Origin: Klenkia soli
GTDB taxonomy: Bacteria; Actinomycetota; Actinomycetes; Mycobacteriales; Geodermatophilaceae
Direction of reading: 5' to 3'
Assembly: GCF_900103975.1 (NCBI RefSeq)
Contig: NZ_FNIR01000021.1
Location: forward strand, 1 to 40,368
DNA: 40,368 nucleotides
Part shown: one piece after another, positions 19,197-35,837 of the stretch
Layout: each line of letters begins with the position of its first letter
Position numbering within the stretch: position 1 is the stretch's first letter
The notes under the pieces: generated by a model
Told to the model about the DNA's origin: nothing
Databases searched by the model: none
What the model saw: the letters and a program-made list of their open reading frames with translations, nothing else
Made by a program: the position numbers and the translations under genes

Positions 19197-19883
19197 CTAC
19201 GAGCGGCGACCCAGGAGGTAGCCGACCAGGACGCCGAGCAGGGTGAGCGCGGCGCCGCCGGCCGCGGCCAGCGCGAGCTCGACGGGGGCGGACCCGGTGG
19301 ACGACGGGGCAGCCGGGGCGGCGAAGCGGGTCGGGGCCGCCGACGAGGTGCTCTCGGGCGTCGACCCGCCGTGCACGGCGGTGTCGCTGACGGCGGCGGC
19401 CGAGGGCGTCACGTTCGCGTTGACCGGGGCCTGGACGGCGGGGGCCGTGCCGGTCAGCTCGGCGTCGATGGCGGAGAAGAACTGGCCGGCCAGCCGCTTG
19501 GCCACCCCGGTGATCATGCGCTGGCCGACGCCGGCCACCGCACCGCCGACGACGGCGTCGGCGTCGTAGGTCAGCTTGGTGCCGCCGTCGACCTCCTCGA
19601 GCGTGATCGGCACGGTCGCCCGCACCGAGCCGGGGCCGCCGGAGCCCGAGGCGTGCATGACGTACCGGGTGGGCTCCTGCTTGTCGGTCAGCTTGACCTC
19701 CCCGGCGTAGACGCCGCGGATGGCGCCGACGCCGACGGAGACGGTCATCGCGTACTCGTCCTCGCCGGTGCGCTCGAGGCCCTGGCAGCCGGGGATGGTG
19801 CGGGCCAGCACGGCCGGGTCGGTGATCGCGGCCCAGACCTTCGCCGGGGGCGCGGACAGGGTGGCGGTGCCGTCGAGCTTCAC
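19197..19883 (-). CDS. CoxG-like SRPBCC protein with C-terminal membrane anchor
   Basis: A 228-residue protein. Residues 1-145 (VKLDGTATLSAPPAKVWAAI … IPGCQGLER … KLTYDADAVVGGAVAGVGQR) are a CoxG/SRPBCC domain, a hydrophobic-pocket fold found with molybdenum hydroxylases. A Ser/Ala/Pro-rich linker of about 50 residues follows, then one membrane helix (ALAAAGGAALTLLGVLVGYL) and a basic end (GRRS). The start overlaps the large-subunit stop by 4 nt (GTGA), so it is the last gene of the five-gene operon. In CO dehydrogenase systems CoxG helps attach the enzyme to the membrane. By inference this one tethers the hydroxylase near the respiratory chain. Confidence 0.85.
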   Translation of the reverse strand: MKLDGTATLSAPPAKVWAAITDPAVLARTIPGCQGLERTGEDEYAMTVSVGVGAIRGVYAGEVKLTDKQEPTRYVMHASGSGGPGSVRATVPITLEEVDGGTKLTYDADAVVGGAVAGVGQRMITGVAKRLAGQFFSAIDAELTGTAPAVQAPVNANVTPSAAAVSDTAVHGGSTPESTSSAAPTRFAAPAAPSSTGSAPVELALAAAGGAALTLLGVLVGYLLGRRS

Positions 19884-22291
19884 GCGGGGACTCCAGGGGT
19901 AGCGGCGGGGACGCGCTCGGCGTCGGGGTTGCGGACCAGGTCGTAGAGCTCGGTGGGGGAGATGGGCATGGCCGCGATGCGCACGGCCACGGCGTCCTCG
20001 ATGGCCGAGGCGATGCAGGCCGTGCCCGGGATGACGCCGGCCTCGCCGGCGCCCTTCAGCCCCAGCGGGTTCAGCGGGGACGGGGTCTCCTGGTGGTCGA
20101 TGACCACGTCGGGGACCTCGCTGGCGTAGGGCATGAGGAAGTCCATGAACGAGGCGTTCTGCAGCTGGCCGTCGGCGTCGTAGGCCATGCGCTCGTACAG
20201 CGCACCGCCCACGCCCTGGGCGACCCCGCCGTGCACCTGGCCCTCGACGATCATCGGGTTCACGATGTTGCCGCAGTCGTGCACCACGGCGTAGTCGACG
20301 ACGTCGATCTCCCAGGTGGTCGGGTCGATCTCCACCACCGCGGCGTGCGCCCCGGAGGCGAAGGTGGACCGGATCGGGGAGTAGTAGTCGACGTGCTCGA
20401 GACCGGGGGCGTCGCCGACCGCGACCGGCGGCTTGCTGTCGTCGCCCGGGCCGGCGAACTGGGTGGCCTGCCGGGCGGCCTCGTCGAAGGCGTAGCGCAG
20501 CGGGTTGCTCAGCACGGCCACGGTGCGCAGCGGGATCGCCGTCCCCGGGGTGCCCTTGACCTGCACGACGCCCTCGTCGATCTCGAGGTCGTCGGGGTCG
20601 GCCTCCAGGATCTCGGCGGCGATCCGCAGCGCCTTGGCCCGCACCCCGCGGGCGGCCAGCGCGATGGCGTTGCCGCTCATCACCGCGGCGCGGGAGGCGA
20701 AGGTGCCCACCGCGTAGCCGAAGCGCCGGGTGTCGCCGGTGACCACCTCGATGTCCTCGATGGGGACGCCGAGCTCGGAGGCGACGATCTGGGCGAACGC
20801 GGTCTCGTGGCCCTGGCCCTGCGAGGTGAGGCCGGTGGAGACCAGCACCTTGCCGCTGCCGAGGACCTGCACGTGGCCGCCCTCGTAGGGGCCGGGGCCG
20901 GTGCCCTCGACGTACATGGCCATGCCGATGCCCAGCTGCTTGCCGCGCGAGGCGGCCTCGACCCGGCGCTCCTCGGCCCGGTCCCAGCCGACCAGCGCGA
21001 TGAGCTTGTCCAGCAGGCCCTCGTAGTTGCCGGAGTCGTAGATGACCGGCCGGCCGTCCTGGAACGTCAGGTGGTGGTCGTAGGGGAACTGGTCGGGCTG
21101 GATCAGGTTGCGCCGGCGCACCTCGGCACGGTCCAGCCCGAGGTCCTGGGCGATCCGGTCCATGGTGCGTTCCATCGCGTAGCAGCCCTGCGGGCGACCG
21201 GCGCCGCGGTAGGGCGTGACGATGACGGTGTTGGTGTAGACGCTGTCGATGCGCACCCGGTACACCGGGATCGCGTACGGGCCCACCAGCTGGGTGGCCG
21301 TCACGATCGGCACGATGATCCCGTAGGGGGTGTAGGCGCCGTTGTCGTGCCAGCCCCGGACGTCGAGCGCGGTGACCCGGCCCTCGTCGTCGTAGCCGAC
21401 GGTGATCTCCTGCCGCTGCTCGCGCTCGTGCGCCGAGGAGATGAAGTGCTCGCGGCGGTCCTCGGCCCAGTGCACGGGCTGGCCCAGCGCGATGGCGGCC
21501 ATCGGCACCAGCAGCTCCTCGGGCCACGGGTGCACGATCTTGACGCCGAACCCGCCGCCGACGTCGGGGGCGACGACCTCGACCTTCTCCAGCGACAGCT
21601 GCAGCTTGGCCGCGACGGCCGCGCGCACCGACGTGGAGGCCTGGGTGGAGGTGTGCACCCGCAGCGACGAGTCGTCGTGGTTCCACACCGCGTGCACGCC
21701 TTTGCCCTCCATGGGCATGCAGGCGCTGCGCTCGATGTACTGGGTGAAGCTCAGCGTGTGCGCCGACGCCGCCAGCGCGGCCTCGACGTCGCCGGTCTCC
21801 TGGTGGTGCCGGGCCGCGACGTTGTCGGGCACGTCCTCGTGGACGGCGTGGGTGGCCGCACGGGCGGCGTCGACGCCCACGACCACCGGCAGCTCCTCGT
21901 AGGAGACGGTGATCCGGTCGCAGACGTCCTCGGCGATGTACCGGTCGGTGGCCACCACCATCACCACGGCCTCGCCCACGTGCTGGACGACGTCGCGGGC
22001 CAGCGGGTAGCCGGTGCGCGGCGCGGTGAGCTGGGGGTGCGGGATGAGCACCGGCAGCGGCTCGGCCATCGGGCCGACCAGGTCCTCGTAGGTGTAGATC
22101 GCGATGACGCCCTCGACGTCCAGCGCGGCGTCGACGTCGATGCCGAGGATGCGGGCGTGCGCGTACGGGCTGCGCACGAAGGCCGCCGCCGCCGCGCCGT
22201 GCCCGATGTCGTCGGTGTACCGGCCGCGGCCGGTGATCAACCGCAGGTCCTCGCGCCGGCGGACCGGCTCGCCCATCAGCTTCGTGGTCAC
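19880..22291 (-). CDS. Molybdenum hydroxylase large subunit (CoxL-like, form II type)
   Basis: An 803-residue molybdopterin-cytosine-dinucleotide subunit of the xanthine oxidase family. VAPDVGGGFGVKI, TPYRGAGRPQGCYAMERTMD and GLKGAGEAGVIPGTA (catalytic Glu near residue 750) are diagnostic. The active-site loop reads PYRGAGR (near residue 360), not the AYRCSFR loop of true CO dehydrogenases, so CO is not the substrate. It hydroxylates a heterocycle or aldehyde using water. In this operon, with an NCS2 permease and a barbiturase elsewhere under the same motif, uracil/thymine dehydrogenase is my best guess. GTG 22291 overlaps the small-subunit stop by 4 nt. Confidence 0.9.
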   Translation of the reverse strand: MTTKLMGEPVRRREDLRLITGRGRYTDDIGHGAAAAAFVRSPYAHARILGIDVDAALDVEGVIAIYTYEDLVGPMAEPLPVLIPHPQLTAPRTGYPLARDVVQHVGEAVVMVVATDRYIAEDVCDRITVSYEELPVVVGVDAARAATHAVHEDVPDNVAARHHQETGDVEAALAASAHTLSFTQYIERSACMPMEGKGVHAVWNHDDSSLRVHTSTQASTSVRAAVAAKLQLSLEKVEVVAPDVGGGFGVKIVHPWPEELLVPMAAIALGQPVHWAEDRREHFISSAHEREQRQEITVGYDDEGRVTALDVRGWHDNGAYTPYGIIVPIVTATQLVGPYAIPVYRVRIDSVYTNTVIVTPYRGAGRPQGCYAMERTMDRIAQDLGLDRAEVRRRNLIQPDQFPYDHHLTFQDGRPVIYDSGNYEGLLDKLIALVGWDRAEERRVEAASRGKQLGIGMAMYVEGTGPGPYEGGHVQVLGSGKVLVSTGLTSQGQGHETAFAQIVASELGVPIEDIEVVTGDTRRFGYAVGTFASRAAVMSGNAIALAARGVRAKALRIAAEILEADPDDLEIDEGVVQVKGTPGTAIPLRTVAVLSNPLRYAFDEAARQATQFAGPGDDSKPPVAVGDAPGLEHVDYYSPIRSTFASGAHAAVVEIDPTTWEIDVVDYAVVHDCGNIVNPMIVEGQVHGGVAQGVGGALYERMAYDADGQLQNASFMDFLMPYASEVPDVVIDHQETPSPLNPLGLKGAGEAGVIPGTACIASAIEDAVAVRIAAMPISPTELYDLVRNPDAERVPAATPGVPA

Positions 22292-22815
22292 TCCGCGGCC
22301 TCCTTCATGAGCCCCGCGGCGTGCCGGCAGGCCTTCTTGATGTTGGCGTAGCCGGTGCACCGGCAGAGGTTGCCGCCGACGATCTCGTCGACCTCGTCCT
22401 CGGTGATGTCGGTGCTGCGGTCCCGGGCCTCGAGGCCAGCGGCCATGGTCATCAGGAAGCCCGGGGTGCAGAAGCCGCACTGCAGGGCGTGGCACTCGCG
22501 GAAGGCCTCCTGCACCGGGTGCAGGACCTCCCCGCCCCGTCCGTCGTCGCGGGCCAGGCCCTCGACGGTGGTGACGGCCTTGCCGTCGACCTGCACGGCC
22601 AGCACCAGGCACGAGCGCACCGGGGTTCCGTCGACCAGCACCGTGCAGGCGCCGCAGACGCCGTGCTCGCAGCCGACGTGGGTGCCGGTCAGCTGCAGGT
22701 CGTGCCGCAGCGCGTCGGACAGCAGCCGGCGGACCGGCACCGTGGTTTCACGTGGCACACCGTTGACGGTCACGGTGATGGCCCGTTCGGTGGAGACGGT
22801 CGTGGGTTCGGTCAT
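22288..22815 (-). CDS. Molybdenum hydroxylase [2Fe-2S] subunit (CoxS-like)
   Basis: A 175-residue electron-transfer subunit with two [2Fe-2S] clusters. The plant-ferredoxin-type domain has CEHGVCGACTVLVDG plus Cys69 (Cys49, 54, 57, 69). The helical C-terminal domain has LQCGFCTPGF and GNLCRCTGYANI, the second cluster. It carries electrons from the molybdenum site to FAD in the M subunit. It starts at ATG 22815, overlapping the FAD-subunit stop (ATGA), and ends in a GTGA overlap with the large subunit, so the three are made together. Slightly long for the family because of about 10 extra N-terminal residues. Confidence 0.95.
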   Translation of the reverse strand: MTEPTTVSTERAITVTVNGVPRETTVPVRRLLSDALRHDLQLTGTHVGCEHGVCGACTVLVDGTPVRSCLVLAVQVDGKAVTTVEGLARDDGRGGEVLHPVQEAFRECHALQCGFCTPGFLMTMAAGLEARDRSTDITEDEVDEIVGGNLCRCTGYANIKKACRHAAGLMKEAAE

Positions 22816-23675
22816 CGGACCAGGGCCTCCTGTGCTGCGCGGGCGAGCGTGCGTTCGGTGAGGACGCCGACCAGCAGCCGGCGGTAGTCCGCGCTGGCGT
22901 GCAGGTCGCCGTCCGGGTCGACGAGCGTGCGGGCCAGGGCGCCGGCGGCGGCCCAGTCGGCGGTGGCGGCGGGTTGGCCGACGAGGGCGTCGGTCAGGTC
23001 GTGCACCTCGGGGACGAGCCCCACGGAGATGTAGGTGGCCCGGGCCGAGACGACCCTCGAGTCGTCGTCGAGGGTGACGGTCACACCCGCGCCGCAGACG
23101 GCGTAGTCGCCCTTGCGGCGGGAGACCTCCTCGAAGGCGGTGCCCGAGCGCGGCGGCAGCGCGGGGAAGAAGGCCTCGGTGACGACGGCCGGGCCGTGCA
23201 CCGAGGTCTCCAGCGGCCCGACGAAGAAGTCGGCCCAGTCGACGGCGGAGGACCCGGCGGGGGTGGCGACGGTGACGGAGCCACCGGTCAGCGCCAGCAC
23301 GGAGGTCATCTCGCCGGAGGGGTCGGCGTGCGCGATGGAACCGACGGTCGTGCCGCGGTTGCGGATCGCGGGGTGGGCGACGTTCGCGGTCGCCCGGGCC
23401 AGCAGCGGTTGCACCCGCGCGGCCTCGGCGTGGTGCAGCAGCTGGACGTGCCGCACGAGGGCCCCGACCCGGACCCCGTCGTCGGTGACGACGACGGAGT
23501 CCAGGCCGGGCACCTGGTTGATGTCCACCAGCGTGGCCGGCGAGGCCAGGCGCATGGACAGCAGGGGGAGCAACGACTGCCCTCCGGCCAACACCTTGGC
23601 GCCGTCGTCGGCGAGGAGGGTCAGCGCCTCGTCGAGCGAGGTGGGGTCGGCGTAGCCGAAGGGCGCGGGCTTCAC
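22812..23675 (-). CDS. Molybdenum hydroxylase FAD subunit (CoxM-like)
   Basis: A 287-residue FAD-binding subunit. LAGGQSLLPLLSMRLASP (about residues 30-47) and NRGTTVGSIAHADPSGE (about 105-121) are the two FAD-contact motifs of the CoxM/xanthine dehydrogenase FAD domain. GDYAVCGAGVTV belongs to the C-terminal domain. It receives electrons from the iron-sulfur subunit and passes them to an external acceptor. GTG 23675 overlaps the permease stop by 4 nt (GTGA). The order permease-M-S-L-G, with every junction overlapping, suggests a single tightly coupled operon. Confidence 0.93.
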   Translation of the reverse strand: MKPAPFGYADPTSLDEALTLLADDGAKVLAGGQSLLPLLSMRLASPATLVDINQVPGLDSVVVTDDGVRVGALVRHVQLLHHAEAARVQPLLARATANVAHPAIRNRGTTVGSIAHADPSGEMTSVLALTGGSVTVATPAGSSAVDWADFFVGPLETSVHGPAVVTEAFFPALPPRSGTAFEEVSRRKGDYAVCGAGVTVTLDDDSRVVSARATYISVGLVPEVHDLTDALVGQPAATADWAAAGALARTLVDPDGDLHASADYRRLLVGVLTERTLARAAQEALVR

Positions 23676-25135
23676 GGGTTGCGGGTCTCCCTGTCGATCG
23701 TGCGGGTACCGGTCTGCTGGTCCAGCGCGGAGGGGTCGGCGGCGTCGTGCGCACCGGTCTTGCCCAGCGCCGGACCGGTGCCGTGGCGGAAGCCGTCCTC
23801 GGCCAGCAGCGCGTCCTTCATCTCCCGCGGGGCCAGGGCGCGGGCCACGTGCCACCCGACGACGGCCACGATGGTGCCCAGCGAGATGCCGCCGAGGGAG
23901 AAGTTGTCGGAGAACTGCAGGTTGACGTTCCCGATCCCGATGATGATCCCGGCCGCGAGCGGCACCAGGTTGATCGGGTTGGCGAAGTCGACCCGGTTCT
24001 CCTTCCAGATCTTGGCGCCCAGCAGCCCGATCATCCCGTAGAGGACGACGGTGATGCCGCCGAGCACGCCACCGGGGGTGGCGTTGACGATCGCGCCGAA
24101 CTTGGGCACCAGACCCAGCACGATCGCCACGATCGCGGCCACGTAGTAGGCGGCCGTGGAGTAGACGCGGGTGGCGGCCATGACGCCGATGTTCTCGGCG
24201 TAGGTGGTGGTGGGCGAGCCGCCGACCGAGCTGGCGAGCACCGTGCCGACGCCGTCGGCGAAGACCGCGCGGCCCAGCACCGGGTCGAGGTTGCGCTTGG
24301 TCATCTCGCCGACGGCCTTGACGTGGCCGGCGTTCTCGGCGATCAGGGCGATGACGGCGGGCAGCACCAGCAGCGAGAAGTTCACCGAGAAGCTCGGGGC
24401 GGTCAGGGTCGGGAAGCCGAACCAGTCGGCCGCGCCGACGCCGGAGAGGTCGACCCGGTCGTGCACGGTGGCCTCGGTGGCCCCGCCCAGGACCGACGTG
24501 ATCGGGCCGGAGACGGCGTCCAGCAGCAGCGACAGCAGGTAGCCGAAGACCAGGCCGAGCAGGATCGAGATGCGCGACCAGAACCCGCGCAGGGCCAGCG
24601 ACACGACGACGACGAAGGCCATCGTGGCCAGCGCGACCCACTGGTCCTGCGGCCAGTAGGTCTGGGCGGCGACCGGGGCCAGGTTGAACCCGATCAGCAG
24701 GACGACGGCACCGGTGACGGCGGGCGGCAGCACCTTGTTGACCACGACCGGGCCGGCCTGCTGGATGACCAGGCCGACGATCGCCAGCACGACGCCGGAC
24801 ACCAGGATGGCGCCGACGACGTCGCCGGAGTCACCGCCGCCGGCCCGCACCGCGGCGACGCCGCCGACGAAGGCGGCCGAGGTGCCCAGGTAGGAGGGCA
24901 CCTTGCCCTGGACGATGAGCAGGAAGACGATCGTCGCGATCCCGCTCATCATGATCGCCAGGTTGGCGTCCAGGCCCATGATCAGCGGGAAGACGAAGGT
25001 GGCGCCGAACATGGCGACCACGTGCTGCGCACCGATGCCGATGGTCAGCGGCCAGGACAACCGCTCGTCGGGGGCCACGGCCTCACCGGGCGGCGGGGTC
25101 TTCCCGTCGCCGTACAACTTCCACCCGAACGCCAT
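23672..25135 (-). CDS. NCS2-family uracil/xanthine permease
   Basis: A 487-residue inner-membrane nucleobase:H+ symporter with about 14 membrane segments. LTIGIGAQHVVAMFGATFVF opens the transport domain, IALIAENAGHVKAVGEMTKR holds the first conserved substrate-binding glutamate region, and SSVGGSPTTTYAENIGVMAA holds the second. The TTYAENIG form resembles uracil permeases (UraA/PyrP) more than the purine branch. The C-terminal 60 residues are polar and longer than usual. ATG 25135 follows AGGAGG. It leads the molybdenum hydroxylase operon, so it probably imports that enzyme's substrate. The upstream region carries the shared operator motif. Confidence 0.9.
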   Translation of the reverse strand: MAFGWKLYGDGKTPPPGEAVAPDERLSWPLTIGIGAQHVVAMFGATFVFPLIMGLDANLAIMMSGIATIVFLLIVQGKVPSYLGTSAAFVGGVAAVRAGGGDSGDVVGAILVSGVVLAIVGLVIQQAGPVVVNKVLPPAVTGAVVLLIGFNLAPVAAQTYWPQDQWVALATMAFVVVVSLALRGFWSRISILLGLVFGYLLSLLLDAVSGPITSVLGGATEATVHDRVDLSGVGAADWFGFPTLTAPSFSVNFSLLVLPAVIALIAENAGHVKAVGEMTKRNLDPVLGRAVFADGVGTVLASSVGGSPTTTYAENIGVMAATRVYSTAAYYVAAIVAIVLGLVPKFGAIVNATPGGVLGGITVVLYGMIGLLGAKIWKENRVDFANPINLVPLAAGIIIGIGNVNLQFSDNFSLGGISLGTIVAVVGWHVARALAPREMKDALLAEDGFRHGTGPALGKTGAHDAADPSALDQQTGTRTIDRETRNP

Positions 25136-25236: not shown

Positions 25237-25255
25237 GGAAGTACCTCAGCGCTAA
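25237..25255. promoter_or_regulatory. Shared operator motif (copy B1), permease operon side
   Basis: Forward GGAAGTACCTCAGCGCTAA; its complement TTAGCGCTGAGGTACTTCC is the best match to the consensus. The core TCAGCGCTAA is nearly palindromic. It lies 102 bp upstream of the permease start and 36 bp from copy B2, so both divergent units could share one regulator. Confidence 0.7.
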
Positions 25256-25290
25256 ATCTTCGTACCCGTGATGTTGCCGCGAGATTTCTC

Positions 25291-25309
25291 TTACCGCTGA
25301 GATACTTCC
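25291..25309. promoter_or_regulatory. Shared operator motif (copy B2), fdrA side
   Basis: Forward TTACCGCTGAGATACTTCC, 17 nt before the fdrA start. Together with the preceding GATTTCTC it matches copy C at 35854-35880 over about 27 bp with few differences. It covers the -35 region of the predicted leaderless promoter (TAGCGT at 25314-25319, 7 nt before GTG 25327). Confidence 0.7.
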
Positions 25310-25326: not shown

Positions 25327-26787
25327 GTGAGCGACCCGGTGCACGTCTCCCTGCGGAGCGGCGTCTACGCCGATTCCGTGAAGTTGATGCAGGTCAGCAA
25401 GGCGGTCGGCGCCCGCGACGGCGTCGTCGCCGTCCTGGTGGCCATGGCCACCCCGCTGAACCTCGAGCTCGCCGCCGGCATGGGCCTCGCGCCCGATCCC
25501 GGCGCGAAGCCCGACCAGCTGCTGATCGCCCTCCGGGCCGTCGACGACGCCGAGCTGGCCGCCGCGGTCACCGCCGTCGAGGCCGCGCTGACCGCCCGCG
25601 AGGAGCGCGGCTCGGCCGACGCCATCCCGCCGCGCACCGTCGGGTTCGCGCTGGGCGAGCAGCAGGAGACCCCGCTGGCGGTCGTCAGCGTGCCCGGCCC
25701 CTACGCCGTCGCCGAGGCGATGGACGCCGTCGGCGCCGGGCGCAGCGTGCTGGTGTTCTCCGACGGCGTCCCCGTCGAGCACGAGGTCGCGCTCAAGCGG
25801 GCCGCCCACGAGGCCGGCGTGCTGGTCATGGGCCCCGACTGCGGCACCGCGATCGTCTCGGGCGTCGCGCTCGGCTTCGCCAACGTCGTGCGCCCCGGGC
25901 CGGTCGGCCTGGTCGCCGCCTCGGGCACCGGCGCGCAGCAGGTCAGCTGCCTGCTCGACATGGCCGGCGTCGGGGTCAGCCACGTGCTCGGCGTCGGCGG
26001 CCGCGACCTGTCCGCCGCCGTCGGCGGGCTGGCCACGCTCGACGCCCTGCGCATGCTCGACGCGGACACCGCCACCGAGCGGGTGCTGCTGGTCAGCAAG
26101 CCGCCGGCGCCCGCGGTGGCCGAGGAGGTCGGCCGCACGGCGGCCGGCCTGGCCACCCCGTTCTCCAGCGCCGCGCTGAGCGCCGACAGCCCCGACCTGA
26201 CCGCCGGCGTCGAGGCGCTGCTGCAGGCGATGGGCGTCGACGTCCCGGCCTGGCCCACCCGCCCCGGCACCGACCGCGAGGTCCCTGCGGGAGCCGTCCT
26301 CAAGGGCTTCTACTCCGGAGGCACCCTCGCCGACGAGGCCATGCTGGTCGCCGCACCCGGGCTCGGCGACGTCCGCAGCAACACCCCGCTGCGCCCCGAG
26401 CTCGACCTGGGCAGCGACTTCGGGACCAGCGGCCACGTCGTCGTCGACTTCGGCGACGACGCGCTCACCGTGGGCCGCGCCCACCCGATGATCGACCCCA
26501 CGCTGCGGCTCGAGGCGATCGCCGGCCTGGCCGCGAGCGGGGAGCCCGCCGTCCTGCTGCTGGACGTCGTCCTCGGGCACGGCGCCGACCCCGACCCGGC
26601 CGGTGCGCTGGCCCCGGCGGTCCGCGACCTGCCGTTCCCGGTCGTCGTCGCGCTGGTGGGCACCGAGGGCGACCCGCAGGGGTGGTCCCGGCAGGCCGAC
26701 GCCTTGGCCGCCGCCGGCGCGCACGTGTTCGCCTCCAACTCCGCGGCCACCCGGTTCGCGGTCGACCTGATCGGGGCCCAGAAGTGA
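25327..26787 (+). CDS. fdrA: FdrA-like protein, probable carbamoyltransferase component
   Basis: A 486-residue FdrA-family protein (acyl-CoA-synthetase-like CoA-binding/ligase folds). Visible family blocks are VSLRSGVYADSVKLMQVSKA at the N-terminus, VLVMGPDCGTAIVSG (about 170-184), GLVAASGTGAQQVSCLLD (about 195-212), and KGFYSGGTLADEAM in the second half. E. coli FdrA (AllF), with YlbE and YlbF, forms oxamate transcarbamylase, which cleaves oxalurate with phosphate to oxamate and carbamoyl phosphate. Here the partner is the overlapping DUF1116 gene. The GTG start has no ribosome-binding site but a TANNNT box 7 nt upstream. The actual substrate is inferred, ureidomalonate being the candidate. 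Confidence 0.85.
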   Translation: MSDPVHVSLRSGVYADSVKLMQVSKAVGARDGVVAVLVAMATPLNLELAAGMGLAPDPGAKPDQLLIALRAVDDAELAAAVTAVEAALTAREERGSADAIPPRTVGFALGEQQETPLAVVSVPGPYAVAEAMDAVGAGRSVLVFSDGVPVEHEVALKRAAHEAGVLVMGPDCGTAIVSGVALGFANVVRPGPVGLVAASGTGAQQVSCLLDMAGVGVSHVLGVGGRDLSAAVGGLATLDALRMLDADTATERVLLVSKPPAPAVAEEVGRTAAGLATPFSSAALSADSPDLTAGVEALLQAMGVDVPAWPTRPGTDREVPAGAVLKGFYSGGTLADEAMLVAAPGLGDVRSNTPLRPELDLGSDFGTSGHVVVDFGDDALTVGRAHPMIDPTLRLEAIAGLAASGEPAVLLLDVVLGHGADPDPAGALAPAVRDLPFPVVVALVGTEGDPQGWSRQADALAAAGAHVFASNSAATRFAVDLIGAQK

Positions 26788-28187
26788 ACCTGCTCAGCGG
26801 ACCGCCGGCCGTCGTGGCCGCCGGTGTCGACGTCTTCTCCGACGCGCTGCGCGCGCAGGGCGCCGCGGTCACCGACGTCGAGTGGCGCCCGCCGACGATC
26901 GGCTCGGCCGACGACCTGACCCAGCTGGCCCTGGACCCGCGCCGCGCGTCGGCCAACCGGGTCGCCGTCGAGCGGGTGCTGGCCAGCCGGTCCACCCTCA
27001 CCGACGTCGCACCGGCGTCCGAGGTCATCGGCCTGACCGGCCGCACCCTGCTGCACTCGGGACCGCCGCTGAGCTGGGAGACCGCCTCGGGCCCGATGCG
27101 CGGCGCGCTCATGGGCGCCTGCCTGTTCGAGGGCTGGGCCGACACCCCCGAGGCCGCCGAGCAGCTGCTGGCCGCCGGCGGCGTCGAGCTCGACAGCTGC
27201 CACCACCACCGCACCGTGGGCCCGATGGCCGGCGTGACCAGCCCGTCGATGTGGATGTGGTGCCTGACCGACCCCACCGACGGGCGGCAGGCCTTCTCCA
27301 ACCTCAACGAGGGCCTGGGCAAGGTGCTGCGCATGGGCGCCTACGGCCCCGAGGTGATCACCCGCCTGCACTGGATGACCGACGTGATGGGCCCGATCCT
27401 GCAGGCCGCCGTCCGCTCGCGGCCCGAGCCGCTGGACGTCACCGGCGTGCTCGCGCAGATGCTGCAGATGGGCGACGAGGGGCACAACCGCAACCGGGCC
27501 GGCTCGCTGATGACCCTGCGCGAGCTGTCGCCGTCGATCGTGGCCGTCGACGCCCCCAAGGACGACGTCGCCGAGGTGCTGCGGTTCATCGGCGGCAACG
27601 AGCACTTCTTCCTCAACCTCGGCATGCCCACGGCCAAGCTGGCCATGGACGCCGTCGGCGAGGTCCCCGGCTCGACGATGGTCACCACGCTGGCCCGCAA
27701 CGGCACCGAGTTCGGCATCCGCACGGCGGGCACCGGCGACCGCTGGTTCACCGCACCGGCGAACACCCCGGTCGGCCTGTTCCTGGGCGACTACGGCCCC
27801 GAGGACGCCAACCCCGACATCGGCGACTCCGCGATCATGGAGACCTACGGCGTGGGCGGGTTCTGCATGGCCGCGGCCCCGGCGATCGTCCGGTTCGTCG
27901 GCGGCACGGTGCCCGACGCGCTGGCCACCACCGAGCGCATGTACCAGATCACCCTGCAGGAGAACCCGGCCATGCAGGTGCCGATCCTGGGCTTCCGCGG
28001 CGCCCCGACCGGCATCGACGTCGTCTCGGTGGCCCGCACCGGGTGGCTGCCGCAGATCAACACCGGCATGGCCGGTCGCGTCGCCGGCACCGGCCAGGTG
28101 GGTGCCGGTCTGGTGCAGCCCCCGGCGTCCTGCTTCGAGCAGGCCGTCGCCGCGCTGGCGGAGGAGTCCCGCGCCGCCCTGGCCTGA
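26784..28187 (+). CDS. DUF1116 protein (YlbE/AllG-like), partner of FdrA
   Basis: A 467-residue DUF1116 protein. Recognisable blocks are FEGWADTPEAAEQLLAAG, CHHHRTVGPMAGVTSPSMWM, FSNLNEGLGKVLRMGAYGPE, GDEGHNRNRAGSLM and GGNEHFFLNLGMPTAKL. YlbE (AllG) is a subunit of the E. coli oxamate transcarbamylase. GTG 26784 overlaps the fdrA stop by 4 nt (GTGA), so the two are made together, as expected for a complex. The third E. coli subunit (YlbF/AllH, DUF2877) is not in the window. Transcription probably ends at the hairpin 15 bp downstream. Confidence 0.88.
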   Translation: MNLLSGPPAVVAAGVDVFSDALRAQGAAVTDVEWRPPTIGSADDLTQLALDPRRASANRVAVERVLASRSTLTDVAPASEVIGLTGRTLLHSGPPLSWETASGPMRGALMGACLFEGWADTPEAAEQLLAAGGVELDSCHHHRTVGPMAGVTSPSMWMWCLTDPTDGRQAFSNLNEGLGKVLRMGAYGPEVITRLHWMTDVMGPILQAAVRSRPEPLDVTGVLAQMLQMGDEGHNRNRAGSLMTLRELSPSIVAVDAPKDDVAEVLRFIGGNEHFFLNLGMPTAKLAMDAVGEVPGSTMVTTLARNGTEFGIRTAGTGDRWFTAPANTPVGLFLGDYGPEDANPDIGDSAIMETYGVGGFCMAAAPAIVRFVGGTVPDALATTERMYQITLQENPAMQVPILGFRGAPTGIDVVSVARTGWLPQINTGMAGRVAGTGQVGAGLVQPPASCFEQAVAALAEESRAALA

Positions 28188-29089: not shown

Positions 29090-29105
29090 GGGTGTCTCCT
29101 CGGGT

Positions 29106-29972
29106 TCAGGCGGGGGCGCCGGACGTGGTGGTGGCCAGCAGGGCGCCGGCGTCCACCTTGAGCTGCAGGCCGGTGACGTAGCGGGCCTCGTCGGAGGCCA
29201 GGAACAGCACCGCGTTGCTGATGTCGACCGGGTCGACGAACGGGATGGGCATCGGCTGCATGGCCGGGAAGGCGAGCATCGCGTCCTCCCGGGTCGGGTT
29301 CTCCAGGTCGGGCCGGAAGACCCGGTACATCGGCTCGCTCTGCAGCATCGGGGTGTCCACGTTGGTCGGGTGCACGGCGTTCACCCGGATGGACTGCGGG
29401 GCCAGCTGCTTCGCCAGCTCGTGCACGAACCGGGCCACGTTCTGCTTCGCGAAGCTGTACCCGGACCCGCCGGGGCCGTTCTGCGGGTTGTCGGTGCCCC
29501 CGGACAGCAACCCGGCGACCGAGCCGGTGCAGACGATCGAGGCACCGGCGGTCAGGTGCGGCAGGGCGACCTCGACGGCGTTGAGGACGCCGGTCAGGTT
29601 GACCGCCACCACGTCGAACCAGCCCTGGACCGGGACGTCGGCGCCCAGCGGGCAGATGCCGGCGTTGGCCACGACGACGTCCAGGTGGCCGAGCTCGGCG
29701 ACCCCGGCCGCCACGGCCGCGGCGAGCTGGGCCCGGTCGCGCACGTCGGCGACCTGCGTCACGACCCGCCGGTCGAGTGCCTCGACCAGGCGGGCGGTCT
29801 CGGCCAGGTCGGCCTCGGTGGCCAGCGGGTAGTGGTTGCTGGCGATGTCCGCGCAGACGTCGACGGCGATGACGTCCGCGCCCTCCTGGGCCAGCCGGAG
29901 TGCGTGCGATCGTCCCTGCCCGCGCGCCGCCCCCGTCACGAACGCGACCTTGCCTGCCATCCGACCTGCCAC
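29106..29972 (-). CDS. Mycofactocin-coupled-type SDR oxidoreductase (paralogue)
   Basis: A 288-residue paralogue of the neighbouring SDR. It has GKVAFVTGAARGQGRSHALR and EGADVIAVDVC, VVVANAGICP, a serine in CTGSVAG and YSFAKQNVARF (Tyr/Lys). Insertions near GGTDNPQNGPGGSG and MLQSEPMYRVFRPDL make it longer. GTG 29972 is chosen because GGAGG lies 6 nt upstream; ATG 29960 would be too far from it. It is the first gene of the operon and diverges from the TetR gene. A 17-bp palindrome between them is the likely operator. Confidence 0.85.
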   Translation of the reverse strand: MAGRMAGKVAFVTGAARGQGRSHALRLAQEGADVIAVDVCADIASNHYPLATEADLAETARLVEALDRRVVTQVADVRDRAQLAAAVAAGVAELGHLDVVVANAGICPLGADVPVQGWFDVVAVNLTGVLNAVEVALPHLTAGASIVCTGSVAGLLSGGTDNPQNGPGGSGYSFAKQNVARFVHELAKQLAPQSIRVNAVHPTNVDTPMLQSEPMYRVFRPDLENPTREDAMLAFPAMQPMPIPFVDPVDISNAVLFLASDEARYVTGLQLKVDAGALLATTTSGAPA

Positions 29973-29994
29973 GGCTGTCCTCCACGACGATGTG

Positions 29995-30011
29995 GTTGCA
30001 CTCAGTGCAAC
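29995..30011. promoter_or_regulatory. 17-bp perfect palindrome, probable TetR operator
   Basis: GTTGCACT-C-AGTGCAAC is a perfect 8+1+8 inverted repeat centred in the 82-bp gap between the divergent SDR operon and the TetR gene. Size, symmetry and position are typical of a TetR-family operator controlling both sides. Confidence 0.85.
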
Positions 30012-30054
30012 GTGACCGGGGTCACCGTAGCGCCTCTGGGCTAGCGTCGGGGCC

Positions 30055-30621
30055 GTGCCGCTCCCGGTCCGTGAACAGCAGCGTCGTGAGGGCTGGGCGG
30101 CGGTCCAGTCGGCGGCGCTCCAGCTGGTCAGCGAGCGCGGCTTCGACGCGGTCACGGTCGACGACATCGCCGCCGCGGCCGGGGTCTCGCGCCGCACCTT
30201 CTTCAACCACTTCCCGACCAAGGCCGCGGCGCTGTTCAACCCCCACCCGGACGACGCCGACCAGCTCGCCCAGCTGCTCCTGGCGGTCGATGCCGCGGCG
30301 GGCGTCTGGCCGGCACTGCGCGCCGTGTGCGTGGACTTCGTCCGCGGTCAGGACCGGGTGCTGAGGGTCCGCCGGCAGCTGGTCGAGGACGCCGAGCTGG
30401 ACGCCTACCACCGCACCGCGCACCTGCACGTGGGCCAGGCGATGGACCGCTGGCTGGCCGCGCAGCTCCCGGACGACCCGTTCACCGCCCGGCTGGTCGC
30501 CGAGTCCGCGGGCGCCGTGCTCATGACCGCGTTCCTGGCCTGGCACCCGGACGACGACCCCGCCCGGTTCGTCGAGCTGGTCGGGCGCGGGTTCGACCTG
30601 GTCGCCCACGGCTTCTCCTGA
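30055..30621 (+). CDS. TetR-family transcriptional regulator
   Basis: A 188-residue one-component repressor. Residues 1-60 (…AALQLVSERGFDAVTVDDIA, AAAGVSRRTFFNHFPTKAAA) are the TetR helix-turn-helix domain. The rest is a helical ligand-binding domain without a family I can name. GTG 30055 has no ribosome-binding site; TAGCGT ends 7 nt upstream, suggesting a leaderless transcript. It probably represses itself and the divergent mycofactocin-type SDR operon through the palindrome at 29995-30011. The inducer is unknown. Confidence 0.9.
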   Translation: MPLPVREQQRREGWAAVQSAALQLVSERGFDAVTVDDIAAAAGVSRRTFFNHFPTKAAALFNPHPDDADQLAQLLLAVDAAAGVWPALRAVCVDFVRGQDRVLRVRRQLVEDAELDAYHRTAHLHVGQAMDRWLAAQLPDDPFTARLVAESAGAVLMTAFLAWHPDDDPARFVELVGRGFDLVAHGFS

Positions 30622-30638
30622 GCGCTAGCGTGCCGTCC

Positions 30639-31865
30639 GTGACCCGCCCCGACGTCCAGCAGGCCGGCGAGCGGGCCGACCTGACCGGGCTGGGGCGGCC
30701 CGAGCTCGCCGAGCTGGCCGACCACCTGCAGCCCGGGGAGCGGGTGCTGGACGTCGGCACCCCGCTGCACGCCGGCGTCTTCGGCCTGCTGGTGCTCACC
30801 GACCGCCGGTTGCTGTTCCGCAAGGTCGGCCGGCAGGCCACCGCGGTCGCCCTCGACCTGGCCGACGTCGAGGGCGTCGAGTGGAAGCGGTCCTTCCGCG
30901 GCCGCAGCCGGCTCGCCGTCCAGACCCGGGACGACGAGCTGGTCTTCACCGAGCTGCCCAACGAGCAGGGCGCGGCCATCGAGAGCGGGTTGCGGGCCGC
31001 CCGCACCACCCCGCGTCCCGCGGCCCCGCCCGCCCGGTCGGCGGTCCCGGCCCCCGCGCCGCAGACCGGCGGCGTCCGGCTGGACCTCGCGGGCCGGACG
31101 GCGCTGGTCACCGGCTCGTCCCAGGGCATCGGCCTGGCCATCGCCACGGGGCTCGCCCGGGCCGGCGCCGCCGTCGTCCTCACCGCCCGGGGCGAGGCGC
31201 GGCTCGCCGCCGCGGCCGACCAGGTGCGCGCCGCGGCCGAGGGCGCCGAGGTCACCACCGTGGCCGCCGACGTCACCTCCGACGCCGGCACCGCCACCCT
31301 GCTGGCCGCCGTCCCCGACGTCGACGTGCTGGTCAACAACCTGGGCGTCTTCGGTGCGCAGCCCGCCCTCGAGATCCCGGACGACGAGTGGCGGCGCTAC
31401 TTCGAGGTCAACGTGCTCACCGCCGTGCGGCTGATCCGGGCCTACCTGCCCGGCATGCGCGAGCGCGGGTGGGGCCGGGCGCTGCAGATCGCCAGCGACT
31501 CGGCCGTCGTCACGCCGGCCGAGATGGTCCAGTACGGCGTCTCCACGACCGCCCTGCTCGCCGTCTCGCGCGGGTTCGCGAAGGAGGCGGCCGGCTCGGG
31601 GGTCACGGTCAACTCGGTGATCGCCGGCCCGACGCACACCGCGGGGGTGGAGGAGTTCGTGCGTTCCCTGGTCGGTGACCTGCCGTGGGACGACGCGCAG
31701 CGCGAGTTCATGCGGGTGCACCGGCCGCAGTCGCTGCTGCAGCGGCTGATCGAGCCCGAGGAGATCGCGAACATGGTGGTCTACCTGGCCTCGCCGCTGG
31801 CGTCGGCGACCACCGGCGGCGCCCTGCGGGTGGACGGCGGCTACGTGGACTCGATCCTGCCGTGA
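30639..31865 (+). CDS. PH-like domain fused to an SDR with altered catalytic motif
   Basis: A 408-residue fusion. Residues about 15-120 (LQPGERVLDVGTPLHAGVFG, LLVLTDRRLLFRKVG, VEGVEWKRSFRGRSRLAV) look like a bacterial PH/GRAM-like beta domain. A Pro/Ala linker follows. From about 147 comes an SDR (GRTALVTGSSQGIGLAIATG, VLVNNLGVFG). The active-site motif reads Y299-G-V-S-T303 where SDRs have YxxxK, so the catalytic lysine is a threonine (codon ACG rather than AAG). It may be inactive, altered in function, or a one-base error. TAGCGT lies 7 nt before GTG 30639, suggesting a leaderless start, 17 nt after tetR. Confidence 0.8.
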   Translation: MTRPDVQQAGERADLTGLGRPELAELADHLQPGERVLDVGTPLHAGVFGLLVLTDRRLLFRKVGRQATAVALDLADVEGVEWKRSFRGRSRLAVQTRDDELVFTELPNEQGAAIESGLRAARTTPRPAAPPARSAVPAPAPQTGGVRLDLAGRTALVTGSSQGIGLAIATGLARAGAAVVLTARGEARLAAAADQVRAAAEGAEVTTVAADVTSDAGTATLLAAVPDVDVLVNNLGVFGAQPALEIPDDEWRRYFEVNVLTAVRLIRAYLPGMRERGWGRALQIASDSAVVTPAEMVQYGVSTTALLAVSRGFAKEAAGSGVTVNSVIAGPTHTAGVEEFVRSLVGDLPWDDAQREFMRVHRPQSLLQRLIEPEEIANMVVYLASPLASATTGGALRVDGGYVDSILP

Positions 31866-31899
31866 CGCCCGCGCAACACCCGTGCGCCAGCCTGTCCCG

Positions 31900-32940
31900 G
31901 TGAGCCTCCAGGTACCCGTCGTCGACATCTCGGCCTACGTCGCCGGTGGCACCCCGGACGAACGGACCGCCTGCGCCCGGGCGATGGACGCCGCCTGCCG
32001 GACCGTCGGCTTCGTGCAGGTCACCGGGCACGGCGTCCCGCAGGCCGTGACCGAGGGCCTGGCCGGGGCCATGGACGACCTCTTCGGCCTGGACCTCGAG
32101 ACGAAGAAGTCCTGGCGCACCCCGCCGGAGGTCAACCGCGGCTACTCGCCGCCGAAGTCGGAGTCGTTGTCGCTGTCCCTGGGCGTGGAGTCGGCCTCGC
32201 GGATGAAGGACTTCTTCGAGGCGTTCAACGTCGGTGCCTCGCAGGCCACGTACCCGCACGCCCCGGGCCTGCCGCAGCCGGACTACGCCGAGAACACCTG
32301 GCCCGCCGTCCCCGGGTTCCGGGCCGCCGTCGAGGCCTACTACGCCGAGGCGGCCCGGGTCGCCCGCACGCTGACCGGCGTCTTCGCCGACGCCCTGGAC
32401 CTGCCGACGACCTTCTTCGCCGACATCACCGGGCACTCCCTGGACGTGCTGCGGATGAACAACTACGCGCTGCCGCCCGGCGAGGTCGAGCTGGACGGCG
32501 ACCTCACCGGCATGGGCGAGCACACCGACTACGGCATCGTCACCGTGCTCTGGGCCGACCAGGTGGCCGGCCTGCAGATCCTGGGCACCGACGGCGGCTG
32601 GCACGACGTCGTCCCCGCCGACGGCGCCCTGCTGGTCAACCTCGGCGACGTCACCACCCGGCTGACCAACGAGCACTGGCTCTCGACGCTGCACCGGGTG
32701 AAGCCCCCGGTCGTCGACGGCCGGATCCAGCGCCGCCGGTCGTGCGCGTTCTTCCACGACGGGGACGTCGACGCCGTGGTCGGGGTGCTGCCGACCTGCC
32801 TCGCCCCGGGCGAGGAGCCGAAGTACCTGCCGGTGACCGTGGGGGAGCACGTGGCGGCCAAGCTCCGCGGCTCCCGCGCCGGGCTGGTGAACACCGCGGC
32901 CGACCGCGAGGCCGCCCGGGTGCTGGCCGCCCGGGGCTGA
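31900..32940 (+). CDS. Isopenicillin-N-synthase-like Fe(II) dioxygenase
   Basis: A 346-residue member of the 2-oxoglutarate/Fe(II) oxygenase superfamily, isopenicillin-N-synthase-like branch. The N-terminal domain has VPVVDISAYV and GFVQVTGHGV. The iron ligands are His208 and Asp210 (GEHTDYG) and His265 (STLHRV). Arg279-x-Ser281 (RRS) binds 2-oxoglutarate. All key residues are present. The family includes gibberellin/ethylene enzymes and fungal thymine 7-hydroxylase, so a thymine-related role is conceivable here but not shown. GTG 31900 is chosen to place VPVVDIS near the N-terminus; GTG 31882 in frame is an alternative. Confidence 0.85.
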   Translation: MSLQVPVVDISAYVAGGTPDERTACARAMDAACRTVGFVQVTGHGVPQAVTEGLAGAMDDLFGLDLETKKSWRTPPEVNRGYSPPKSESLSLSLGVESASRMKDFFEAFNVGASQATYPHAPGLPQPDYAENTWPAVPGFRAAVEAYYAEAARVARTLTGVFADALDLPTTFFADITGHSLDVLRMNNYALPPGEVELDGDLTGMGEHTDYGIVTVLWADQVAGLQILGTDGGWHDVVPADGALLVNLGDVTTRLTNEHWLSTLHRVKPPVVDGRIQRRRSCAFFHDGDVDAVVGVLPTCLAPGEEPKYLPVTVGEHVAAKLRGSRAGLVNTAADREAARVLAARG

Positions 32941-33716: not shown

Positions 33717-33719
33717 ACA

Positions 33720-33761: not shown

Positions 33762-33767
33762 GCGGGG

Positions 33768-34871
33768 TCAGGCCTTGACGATGGCGGCGACGGGGCCGCC
33801 GCCCGAGGGGCCCTGGTGCACGGCGGCGACGGAGACGAAGACCGCCGGGTCGCCGGTCACCGAGGCGGCGACGCCGCCGACGGTGGCCTTGATCTGGCGG
33901 TGCCAGAAGACGTCGGAGTCGTCGAGCATCGCGTTGCGGCGGCCGCGGACGTAGCCGGTCGGGTCGGCCTCGCACTTGAGGAAGACGTTGACCAGCTTGT
34001 CCCCGAGGTCCGAGGTGTGCGGGCGCTCGGGCAGCTCGAGGCCGGCCTCGCGGATGGCCTGCCAGATGCCGTCCTGGTCCAGGGCGTCCTTCATGACCGA
34101 GTGGCCGATGCGGTAGTTGCCGCCGTGGCCGCGGGCGTTGCCGACCACGACGATCTGCGCCTGGTCCAGCTCGACGCCCGAGGAGCACGAGGCGACGGCC
34201 GAGAACAGCGAGAAGTCGCGCATGACCTGCTTCTGCTCGGGCAGCTCGATCTCGCCCAGGGCCAGGGCGATGCCCAGCGCGGTGGTGCCGTTGGAGAGGT
34301 CCATCGAGCCGTGCGGCTCGTCGTAGTAGGTCTCCTGGCCGCGCGACTTGGCCTCGCGGATCGTCTCGATCGTGAGCAGCGGGGTCTTGGTCTGCACGTA
34401 GTGGACGTCGGCGGGGTCGGTGATGCCGGCCTCGGCCATCGCGCGCTTCACGCCCTCGGCGACCTTCTCGACCATGGTGATGCGGCCGATGTCCTCGGGC
34501 AGCAGGACCTCGCTCATCGCGAAGCCGACGGTCAGCCGGGGCTCGTCGGTCTTCTCGACGGCGTCCTCGGGCAGCGTGGCGAAGATGGTGGCGTGCGGGC
34601 TGATGACGCCGTCGGTGCCGCCGGACCAGACGATCGGGATCTGCTTGACCTCGGCCTCGCTGCGGGTGCCCTTGGCCATCAGCACCTCGCGGAAGGCGCG
34701 GTCGGCGATGATCCGGGTGTAGTCGTTCACCCCGCCGTTGCCCTCGGTCTTGCCGATGACGGCCACGACGCGGTCGGCGTCCATGACGCCCTCGTCGATG
34801 AGCTTGGCGAGCTCGGAGGCGTCGCTCACGTTGTGCAGCGGGACCTTGCGGACCTCGATCGGTGCGGGCAC
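33768..34871 (-). CDS. Ring-opening amidohydrolase: barbiturase (or cyanuric acid hydrolase)
   Basis: A 367-residue member of the small cyanuric acid hydrolase/barbiturase family. Three similar domains each bring a Lys and a Ser: Lys41 ([10 protein letters not shown]) with Ser83 (WSGGTDG); Lys162 (VQTKTPLL) with Ser230/231 (ASCSSGVEL); and the Lys of RQIKA with the Ser of GPSGGGP. Barbiturase opens barbiturate to ureidomalonate; cyanuric acid hydrolase acts on an s-triazine. I favour barbiturase because carbamate kinase precedes it and the shared operator links it to a uracil-type permease and a molybdenum hydroxylase. GTG 34871 has AAGGAG 6 nt upstream, 12 nt after the kinase stop. Confidence 0.88.
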
Positions 34872-34883
34872 GGCGGGCTCCTT

Positions 34884-35837
34884 CTACTGGATGACGGTGC
34901 CGACGGCGTCGTCGGCGACGGCTTCTGCGATGTGCTCGAGAGAGGTGATGACGGCGCGACGTCCGGGCCCGCCGTCGACGAACCGCAGCGCGGCGTCGAC
35001 CTTGGGGCCCATGCTGCCGCGCGCGAACTGGCCGGCCGCCGCGTGCTCGCGCAGCTCGGCGACGGTGACCCGGCCCAGCGGCCGGGCGTCGGGGGTGCCG
35101 AAGTCGACCATCACGTGGTCGACGTCGGTGGCGATCACCAGCGTGTCGGCGCCGAGCTCGGCGGCCATCAGCGCGGCGGTCAGGTCCTTGTCGATGACCG
35201 CCTCGACACCGCGCAGGGCGGCGCCGTCCCGGCCGTCGTCCACGACCGGGATGCCCCCGCCGCCGGCGCAGACGACGACGAACCCGGCAGCGGCCAGGGC
35301 GCGGATCGCGGGGGAGTCGAGCACCGAGCGGGGCTCGGGCGAGGCCACGACGCGGCGCCAGCCCTTCTCGCCGCGGTCCTCCCACAGCTGGCCGAGGTCG
35401 ACGAACCGCTGCGCCTGCCCGCGCGGCAGGAACCGGCCGACGGGCTTGGTGGGCTCGGCGAACCCGGGGTCGGCGGCGTCGACCAGCGTGCGGGTGACCA
35501 GGGCGGCGGTGCGCTGGGCCAGCCCGCGGGCGGCGAGGGCGGCGTCCAGCTCGTCGACGACGGTGAACCCGATCGTCCCCTGGGTCTGCGCGACGTTCCA
35601 GTCCAGCGGGACCGGGGGGACCTCGTGCGCGGCCAGCTCGTTCTTGACCAGCAGGTTGCCGACCTGCGGGCCGTTGCCGTGGGTGACCACGACCTCGACC
35701 CCGGTGGCGACGACGTCGGCCACGTGGCCGGCGGCGACGGCGATGGCCGCCCGCTGGGCACCCGGGGTCGCGGAGCCGTCGGGGCCGGTCATCGCGTTGC
35801 CGCCCAGGGCGATCACGACGCGGCGCTGCGAGGTCAT
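34884..35837 (-). CDS. arcC: Carbamate kinase
   Basis: A 317-residue amino-acid-kinase-fold enzyme that makes ATP from carbamoyl phosphate and ADP, releasing carbamate (NH3 plus CO2). RRVVIALGGNAM, VVTHGNGPQVGNLL, CAGGGGIPVV, VIDKDLTAALMA, ATDVDHVMV and FARGSMGPKVDAAL are the full set of family motifs. No arginine deiminase genes are nearby; the next gene is the barbiturase, so the carbamoyl phosphate probably comes from ureide breakdown rather than citrulline. ATG 35837 has a TAGGGT box 6 nt upstream and the shared operator motif beyond it. Confidence 0.95.
   Translation of the reverse strand: MTSQRRVVIALGGNAMTGPDGSATPGAQRAAIAVAAGHVADVVATGVEVVVTHGNGPQVGNLLVKNELAAHEVPPVPLDWNVAQTQGTIGFTVVDELDAALAARGLAQRTAALVTRTLVDAADPGFAEPTKPVGRFLPRGQAQRFVDLGQLWEDRGEKGWRRVVASPEPRSVLDSPAIRALAAAGFVVVCAGGGGIPVVDDGRDGAALRGVEAVIDKDLTAALMAAELGADTLVIATDVDHVMVDFGTPDARPLGRVTVAELREHAAAGQFARGSMGPKVDAALRFVDGGPGRRAVITSLEHIAEAVADDAVGTVIQ

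Follow-up and report, generated by a model that had tools for sequence, protein, structure and literature searches.

The window analysed here, the entire contig NZ_FNIR01000021.1 (C16, 40368 bp) of the 4.76 Mb genome of Klenkia soli, carries the genes of a predicted oxidative pyrimidine pathway. We consider it fairly likely that these genes form one regulon, in which ureidomalonate would be cleaved with phosphate to malonamate and carbamoyl phosphate. This phosphorolysis is suggested by the activity of AllFGH of Escherichia coli, the co-occurrence of the genes, a barbiturase-linked clade of AllG, and parallel plasmid operons with cyanuric acid hydrolases. A preliminary description of the window had arrived at the same central idea, which is probably right in substance and has more support than the sequence alone could show.

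In the proposed pathway, an NCS2 permease would import uracil, CoxMSLG would oxidize it to barbiturate, as its tight link to barbiturase suggests, and barbiturase would open the ring to ureidomalonate. FdrA-AllG, perhaps together with an AllH encoded on another contig (C14), would transfer the carbamoyl group of ureidomalonate to phosphate, yielding malonamate and carbamoyl phosphate, and carbamate kinase (CK), judged by homology, would convert the latter to ATP, NH3 and CO2. An amidase encoded on C18 would then hydrolyze the malonyl-N bond of malonamate to give malonate and NH3. The CK step would yield one ATP, which may be consumed again if the hydantoinase-like proteins HyuAB act on the main route. 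In genomes without AllFG/CK (four Rhodococcus, one of which has a CK elsewhere, and two Modestobacter), such an amidase could cut ureidomalonate directly, with release of urea.

Gene set and shared promoter motif

Genes were called by Pfam and NCBIfam profile searches, and the nearest solved relatives were taken from a comparison with the PDB. The permease, CoxMSL, barbiturase-family enzyme, FdrA, DUF1116 protein and carbamate kinase of the preliminary description were all recovered where it had placed them. FdrA, the AllF subunit (25327..26787, plus strand; Ligase_CoA; PDB 3dmy), scores 375.9 bits against the PRK06091 FdrA model (cut-off 433) and is 37.8% identical to E. coli FdrA. Its stop codon overlaps the start of AllG (GTGA), the DUF1116 protein (26784..28187, plus strand; PF06545, 7.7e-92; PDB 3clq, 394 bits), which is 49.1% identical to E. 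coli AllG over 409 residues. By domains, family models, solved relatives and these identities, the AllF and AllG subunits of an oxamic transcarbamylase are thus present in the window. Barbiturase (33768..34871) and CK (34884..35837) are neighbours on the minus strand. CK is under the cut-off of the arcC model (336.4 bits, cut-off 358.25) and over that of PRK12352 (299 versus 266); it is the only full-length carbamate kinase found in the genome, the other two matches scoring 23.8 and 32.5 bits, and it shares the regulon with FdrA-AllG from a separate operon.

A further minus-strand unit consists of the genes for the NCS2 nucleobase permease (23672..25135; PF00860, 5.9e-73), the CoxM-like flavin adenine dinucleotide subunit (22812..23675; FAD_binding_5, CO_deh_flav_C), the CoxS-like [2Fe-2S] subunit (22288..22818; Fer2, Fer2_2), the CoxL-like molybdenum large subunit, a candidate uracil dehydrogenase (19880..22288; MoCoBD domains), and CoxG (19197..19886; COXG, 4.9e-26). 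The five genes overlap or abut, with all four Cox starts being estimates. The best NCBIfam model for the permease is RutG (TIGR03616; 376 bits, under the cut-off of 758.65).

The motif RGTAYYTCANCGSTAAGRKA, composed from the window's own sites, has exact minus-strand matches at 11676-11695, just 5' of the start of the HyuA open reading frame (ORF), at 25287-25306 between NCS2 and FdrA, and at 35858-35877, 5' of CK-barbiturase; its 15-bp core alone, again without mismatch, occurs on the plus strand of the NCS2/FdrA intergenic region (25241-25255). Allowing three mismatches, the full motif has 4 matches in the window versus 0.01 in shuffled sequences, and the core with up to two mismatches has 5 versus 0.14; both counts include a site at 17656 that lies within a coding region. 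Conservation was assessed in Geodermatophilaceae loci drawn from 63, the others being without the needed genes or sufficient flank. With up to three mismatches, 57 of 59 loci have the motif 5' of CK and 25 of 30 have it in the FdrA/NCS2 intergenic region; among random 260-bp stretches, 25 of 1260 contain it. The claim that the gene set stands under one motif is thereby borne out.

The three motif-bearing intergenic regions serve HyuAB, NCS2-Cox together with FdrA-AllG, and CK-barbiturase. Because a site lies directly 5' of HyuA, the HyuAB operon (7744-11669, minus strand) is a regulon member that the preliminary description overlooked. It encodes HyuA, a hydantoinase A (9594..11669; Pfam; nearest solved relative N-methylhydantoinase, PDB 7hk5, 462 bits), and HyuB, of the hydantoinase B/oxoprolinase family (7744..9888; Hydantoinase_B, 5.6e-136; true start probably at about 9.6 kb), and it adjoins CK-barbiturase or CoxG in many relatives whose loci were fetched. 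A genome-wide scan with up to three mismatches gave 15 matches versus 3 for the reversed pattern, among them one 5' of an amidase gene (C18:19902, 1 mismatch) and one 5' of an NmrA-like gene (C19:20026, 2 mismatches). In Nocardioides-like clusters, a relative of this amidase lies between CoxG and HyuA (mostly 54-58% identity, 34-35% in two) and a relative of the NmrA-like protein (34-44% identity to the C19 protein) between HyuB and CK. Since relatives of these motif-marked genes sit inside the clusters of other families, motif sites and cluster membership agree independently, which is strong evidence that the regulon has been read correctly. The full system is therefore larger than previously described, and adds HyuAB, the amidase, AllH/PucR and the NmrA-like protein.

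Co-occurrence and gene order in Actinomycetia

In a class sample of 394 genomes, a search with PF09663, the family of barbiturases and cyanuric acid hydrolases, matched 82 genomes and AllG was present in 88, with both in 75 (Fisher 3e-58, a value that overstates independence because the genomes are related, several families being represented). Five of the 82 have cyanuric-acid-hydrolase-like proteins (35-39% identity). Of the other 77, all except G014 (72% complete) and G206 have AllG. The distance between CK and barbiturase is at most 3 kb in 73 of 80 named loci and 64 of 76 from the class sample. The co-occurrence check suggested earlier thus finds barbiturase near-exclusively with AllG and CK.

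Both genes are on one contig in 48 of the 75 genomes, always on opposite strands (48/48) and 6-47 kb apart in 40 of these 48. Barbiturase loci were fetched for all 82 genomes, AllG loci for 13 AllG-only genomes and for 24 of 77 places in genomes with both. Where these loci cover it, end to end in some genomes, the gene order of complete clusters is AllG-FdrA-AllH, divergent from PucR-NCS2-CoxM-CoxS-CoxL-CoxG-(amidase)-HyuA-HyuB-CK-barbiturase. Many Geodermatophilaceae contigs break about 5-8 kb 5' of barbiturase, as does the window at its right end, which would fit a long repeat at that point, an rRNA operon for example.

A subset of 22 of the 80 named barbiturase loci was selected non-randomly and includes six of the seven without CK beside barbiturase. 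Of these 22 genomes, 16 carry AllG, and four Rhodococcus and two Modestobacter do not. If the window genome is counted in, all 17 AllG-bearing genomes have a full-length CK, compared with one of the six AllG-less ones, a Rhodococcus. All four Rhodococcus genomes are without AllG and AllH and have an amidase gene directly after barbiturase (one Pfam-checked). The barbiturase of the window shares 98% identity with its counterparts in Klenkia terrae and Modestobacter sp. Leaf380, and 78-80% with the four Rhodococcus copies.

The barbiturase-linked AllG clade

AllFGH of E. coli acts on oxalurate, as described in passages of PMC11326118. The relation of the window enzyme to it was analysed with a tree of 43 of the 124 extracted AllG sequences and that of the window. 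Barbiturase-linked AllG forms one clade with a Shimodaira-Hasegawa-like approximate likelihood ratio (SH-aLRT) support of 100, which holds 27 sequences from barbiturase genomes; its one further member comes from a genome that is 80% complete and has no barbiturase match. This clade and six canonical sequences have 104 alignment columns in common, and 12 differ consistently. All 28 clade members have W156, R237 and R417 (numbering of the window protein, start codon excluded), and none of the 19 others has any of them, the cyanuric-acid-linked ones included; R417 stands where 18 of these 19 have an acidic residue. The fixed residues would fit an altered substrate, without naming which. A divergent AllG subfamily (36-38% identity) was observed in L234, L235 and L238-L240, with FdrA and CK unmatched in the 17-20 kb fetched.

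Parallel operons with cyanuric acid hydrolases on plasmids

A tblastn search in plasmids found AllG beside ring-opening amidohydrolase genes. One operon, cyanuric acid hydrolase-NCS2-AllH-FdrA-AllG-CK, is covered to at least 80% in 47 of 49 matching records from Citrobacter, Klebsiella, Enterobacter, Leclercia, Raoultella and others; the 47 are near-copies of at least 95% identity and were treated as a single event. A search of the E. coli genome collection did not find this operon. A second operon, FdrA-AllG-ring opener-CK, occurs in two records, Aminobacter sp. SR38 and a Klebsiella plasmid, and over the compared printed stretch its ring opener is identical to PDB 5t13, which we take to be TrzD. 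The plasmid operons with cyanuric acid hydrolase and FdrA-AllG-CK span L315 4686-12327 and L314 10382-15475. The allophanate hydrolase AtzF is encoded nearby in two Klebsiella plasmids. No biuret hydrolase or AtzE is annotated in the rows viewed, which come from an incomplete gene table and span all but about 12 kb of pHS08204 and 25 kb of the K. quasipneumoniae plasmid. On an E. coli plasmid, a cysteine hydrolase-AllH-FdrA-AllG-CK-hypothetical-cytosine permease arrangement was observed (L316 5762-12972).

Carboxybiuret is the NH isostere of ureidomalonate, and the plasmid operons may represent an ATP-yielding s-triazine route. The pairing of AllFG-CK with a uracil-type pathway thus has an independent parallel, namely, a cyanuric acid hydrolase with an AllFGH-CK block on proteobacterial plasmids. 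We give about even chances to the wider view that AllF-AllG(-AllH) with CK serves generally as a phosphorolytic back-end for azines after ring opening, acting on ureidomalonate in Actinomycetia and on carboxybiuret or biuret on proteobacterial plasmids.

Points against phosphorolysis and alternative explanations

Several observations, here and among those discussed with the alternatives below, weigh against the phosphorolysis of ureidomalonate by this regulon. Seven of the 80 named loci, and 9 of the 73 class loci with sufficient flank, have no CK within 3 kb of barbiturase. Among the 75 genomes with both families, at least one, G051, has its sole AllG outside the barbiturase clade, and in G023 the barbiturase match is limited to a fragment of 25 residues at the end of a contig. 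The motif is absent from 12 of 12 loci of other families, and therefore the regulon evidence is family-specific. AllG of the barbiturase clade differs at the fixed positions from both E. coli and cyanuric-acid-linked AllG, which makes the substrate analogy indirect and weakens a simple analogy to carboxybiuret. Genomes with both barbiturase and AllG do not have urease less often (29/75) than the remaining genomes (Fisher p 0.52). As a discriminator between the two fates of ureidomalonate urease was discarded: it is present in 6 of 6 AllG-less versus 10 of 17 AllG-bearing barbiturase genomes (one partial match), the six AllG-less genomes representing only two genera.

The alternative that survives best is parallel hydrolysis, in which the amidase would be the ureidomalonase, yielding malonate and urea, and FdrA-AllG-CK would serve another ureide, e.g., oxalurate, the substrate of the E. 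coli enzyme (PMC11326118, in the passages cited above), or the product of a ring opened by HyuAB (hydantoin, parabanate). We regard it as rather unlikely. The C18-type amidase is matched in 23 of 23 genomes examined (a fragment in one; 41-43% identity in Rhodococcus), among them two Modestobacter that lack AllFG/CK and carry the amidase gene on the same contig as barbiturase; this leaves a purely hydrolytic route possible, with AllFG for another ureide. HyuAB, moreover, belongs to the regulon. However, CK is directly beside barbiturase in most loci, and the AllG sequences of barbiturase-less genomes fall into other clades, bar the one from the 80% complete genome. Matches to AllB, AllC, AllD or AllE (E <= 1e-10, half of the query) are absent from all 194 barbiturase-type loci, so that allantoin/ureidoglycolate genes are lacking there; one locus (L083) has a GlxK match. 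In addition, the plasmid operons carry AllFGH-CK without HyuAB in the viewed stretches.

The retained amidase also bears on the earlier proposal that phosphorolysis replaces ureidomalonase, which is not supported. Hydrolysis by ureidomalonase and hydrolysis of malonamate both break the malonyl-N bond, and since the amidase is retained, AllFG-CK looks like an optional step inserted before it instead of a replacement, as far as can be judged from gene content. Malonamidase E2 was rejected as a model for this amidase: the similarity is weak (at most 85 bits, compared to about 200 bits for GatA and aryl acylamidase), and homology therefore does not settle the substrate. Genes for family III CoA-transferases (Pfam) were observed near barbiturase in three loci (L081 11496-12662, L174 13631-14812, L225 14297-15505) and possibly encode a malonate activation step.

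The claim of an energy-conserving pathway also needs revision. The N-methylhydantoinase family, to which the nearest solved relative of HyuAB belongs, is ATP-using, and HyuAB would probably consume ATP as well; a net ATP gain is therefore unproven. Furthermore, carbamoyltransferases strongly favour the direction of carbamoylation, according to a passage in PMC4016543, so that a pull by CK would be needed.

Much less probable is an s-triazine route in the window itself, with the ring opener acting on cyanuric acid and AllFG-CK splitting carboxybiuret or biuret. The ring opener passes the NCBIfam equivalog model for cyanuric acid hydrolase (475, cut-off 360), which is attributed to the closeness of the two families, and the proteobacterial ring-opener relatives that occur with AllFGH-CK resemble cyanuric acid hydrolases. 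In contrast, its score against the solved barbiturase 5hwe (630.7 bits) is about twice that against any solved cyanuric acid hydrolase (best 324.8). A part of PMC4051656 describes a substrate arginine in domain B of cyanuric acid hydrolases that is Gln in the barbiturase subgroup. This column was placed by counting from a conserved Lys, and 157 loci were scanned (80 named, 76 class, and the window). At this position the window protein has Asn, as has the solved barbiturase, which does not have Gln either. The residue pattern caught 103 barbiturase-type sequences, 102 with Asn and one with Ile; both plasmid cyanuric acid hydrolases have Arg, and the pattern did not match in the six cyanuric-acid-hydrolase-like class loci. 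The molybdenum hydroxylase and the NCS2 permease, too, suit uracil. Cyanuric acid is thus disfavoured as a substrate, and the preliminary assignment as a barbiturase, which would open the ring to ureidomalonate, is supported.

Similarly improbable is the notion that AllFG are functionless relics after a loss of AllH from the cluster. The E. coli enzyme needs AllF, AllG and AllH, and AllFG alone restored 7% of oxamate, as reported in a section of PMC11326118. AllH lies beside FdrA in none of 46 named Geodermatophilaceae loci and is absent from the window, and FdrA-DUF1116 as the full enzyme, in the form first proposed, is not supported. An AllH model built from sequences in the analysis matches 28 of 34 FdrA-bearing class loci; the six misses comprise two short contigs, a second window copy, one window-family member and two non-barbiturase loci. 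The window genome has one AllH, on C14, divergent from a gene for a PucR homologue (Pfam PucR; 34% identity to the cluster PucR). This divergent pair is the same as in complete clusters, and the C14 AllH groups among barbiturase-linked sequences in a weakly resolved placement. It came up without a motif site in the genome scan, and AllH is also found in the two AllG-less Modestobacter genomes. Against relics speak this persistence of AllH beside PucR, the intact FdrA and AllG ORFs with their own conserved regulon promoter, and the 104 AllG positions that match the canonical set.

That CoxMSLG is a true carbon monoxide (CO) dehydrogenase and an incidental neighbour, as the NCBIfam family name "aerobic carbon-monoxide dehydrogenase large subunit" has it, is the least probable alternative and can practically be dismissed, because CoxL has the active-site motif PYRGAGR instead of AYXCSFR, the motif of form I aerobic CO dehydrogenase CoxL, and because 21 of 22 barbiturase genomes, three of four Rhodococcus among them, have the same family, NF040766, above its cut-off. 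On the strength of this distribution, CoxL of this family (window protein 1439.6 bits, cut-off 950) is the best candidate for the uracil dehydrogenase, and the label of NF040766, aerobic CO dehydrogenase group 5 (CODH_aero_grp5), is probably a misnomer. The two motif strings both occur in papers on form I and form II enzymes.

Neighbouring genes

Between AllG and barbiturase (28271-32940) lie genes for short-chain dehydrogenases/reductases (SDRs) and a 2-oxoglutarate (2OG)-Fe(II) oxygenase. Of 80 related loci, 10 have a match to SDR1, 10 to SDR2, 12 to SDR3 and 8 to the oxygenase, and these genes are not conserved members of the gene set. Divergent from HyuA (11821-14241, plus strand), genes for an AurF-type diiron N-oxygenase and then a ferredoxin/pyridine nucleotide-disulphide oxidoreductase were observed.

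Comparison with known systems and implications

The oxidative pyrimidine pathway of Rhodococcus erythropolis leads from uracil via barbiturate and ureidomalonate to malonate and urea, the last step being catalyzed by ureidomalonase (PMC3758960, as far as the pathway is outlined there); a passage of PMC3961730 cites strain JCM 3132 of R. erythropolis for its use of pyrimidines. Barbiturase is common to this pathway and the window. R. erythropolis itself is outside the genomes searched. The four Rhodococcus genomes searched resemble the window in the CoxL family (3/4) and in an NCS2 gene within 10 kb of barbiturase (4/4), and differ from it by the absence of AllFGH and by an amidase beside barbiturase, whereas the window has FdrA-AllG, CK and HyuAB, with the amidase elsewhere in the genome.

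The second relative is AllFGH-AllK of E. coli, i.e., oxamic transcarbamylase with its catabolic carbamate kinase, to which the identities are 38% (FdrA), 49% (AllG) and 42% (CK). Oxalurate and ureidomalonate are both N-acylureas with a carboxylate, and the predicted substrate of the window system is one CH2 longer. In contrast to E. coli, the window has no nearby allantoin genes, AllH is outside the cluster, and the fixed AllG residues differ. A third comparison is with the ureidoglycine carbamoyltransferase and CK of Rubrobacter, where, according to the corresponding part of PMC4016543, a transcarbamylase with CK likewise stands in for a hydrolase during the breakdown of a nucleobase, although with an enzyme of the aspartate transcarbamylase type and in the purine pathway. 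Finally, the plasmid operons of Klebsiella, Citrobacter, Aminobacter and others share with the window a ring-opener family joined to AllFGH-CK, but their ring opener has the Arg of cyanuric acid hydrolases, and AtzF is near two of those in Klebsiella. The expected step there would be the conversion of carboxybiuret or biuret to allophanate or urea and carbamoyl phosphate. A literature search that had most subscription journals outside its reach found no report of barbiturase together with FdrA or with carbamoyl phosphate.

If ureidomalonate is indeed cleaved with phosphate, the consequences would be manifold. The known pathway only releases urea, and the version of the window would recover part of the energy as ATP. 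A widespread actinobacterial cluster would obtain a function, and a second natural substrate would be added for the DUF1116/FdrA family. For the uracil dehydrogenase step, attention would turn to the genes now annotated as CO dehydrogenase "group 5", and it would become clear how bacteria without urease could recover the full nitrogen of uracil. By the same reasoning, the enteric plasmid operons that combine FdrA-AllG-CK with a cyanuric acid hydrolase can be given a possible function. Should the view of a general back-end hold as well, the breakdown of pyrimidines and that of s-triazines would both have energy-conserving forms, bypassing the hydrolysis of urea or biuret.

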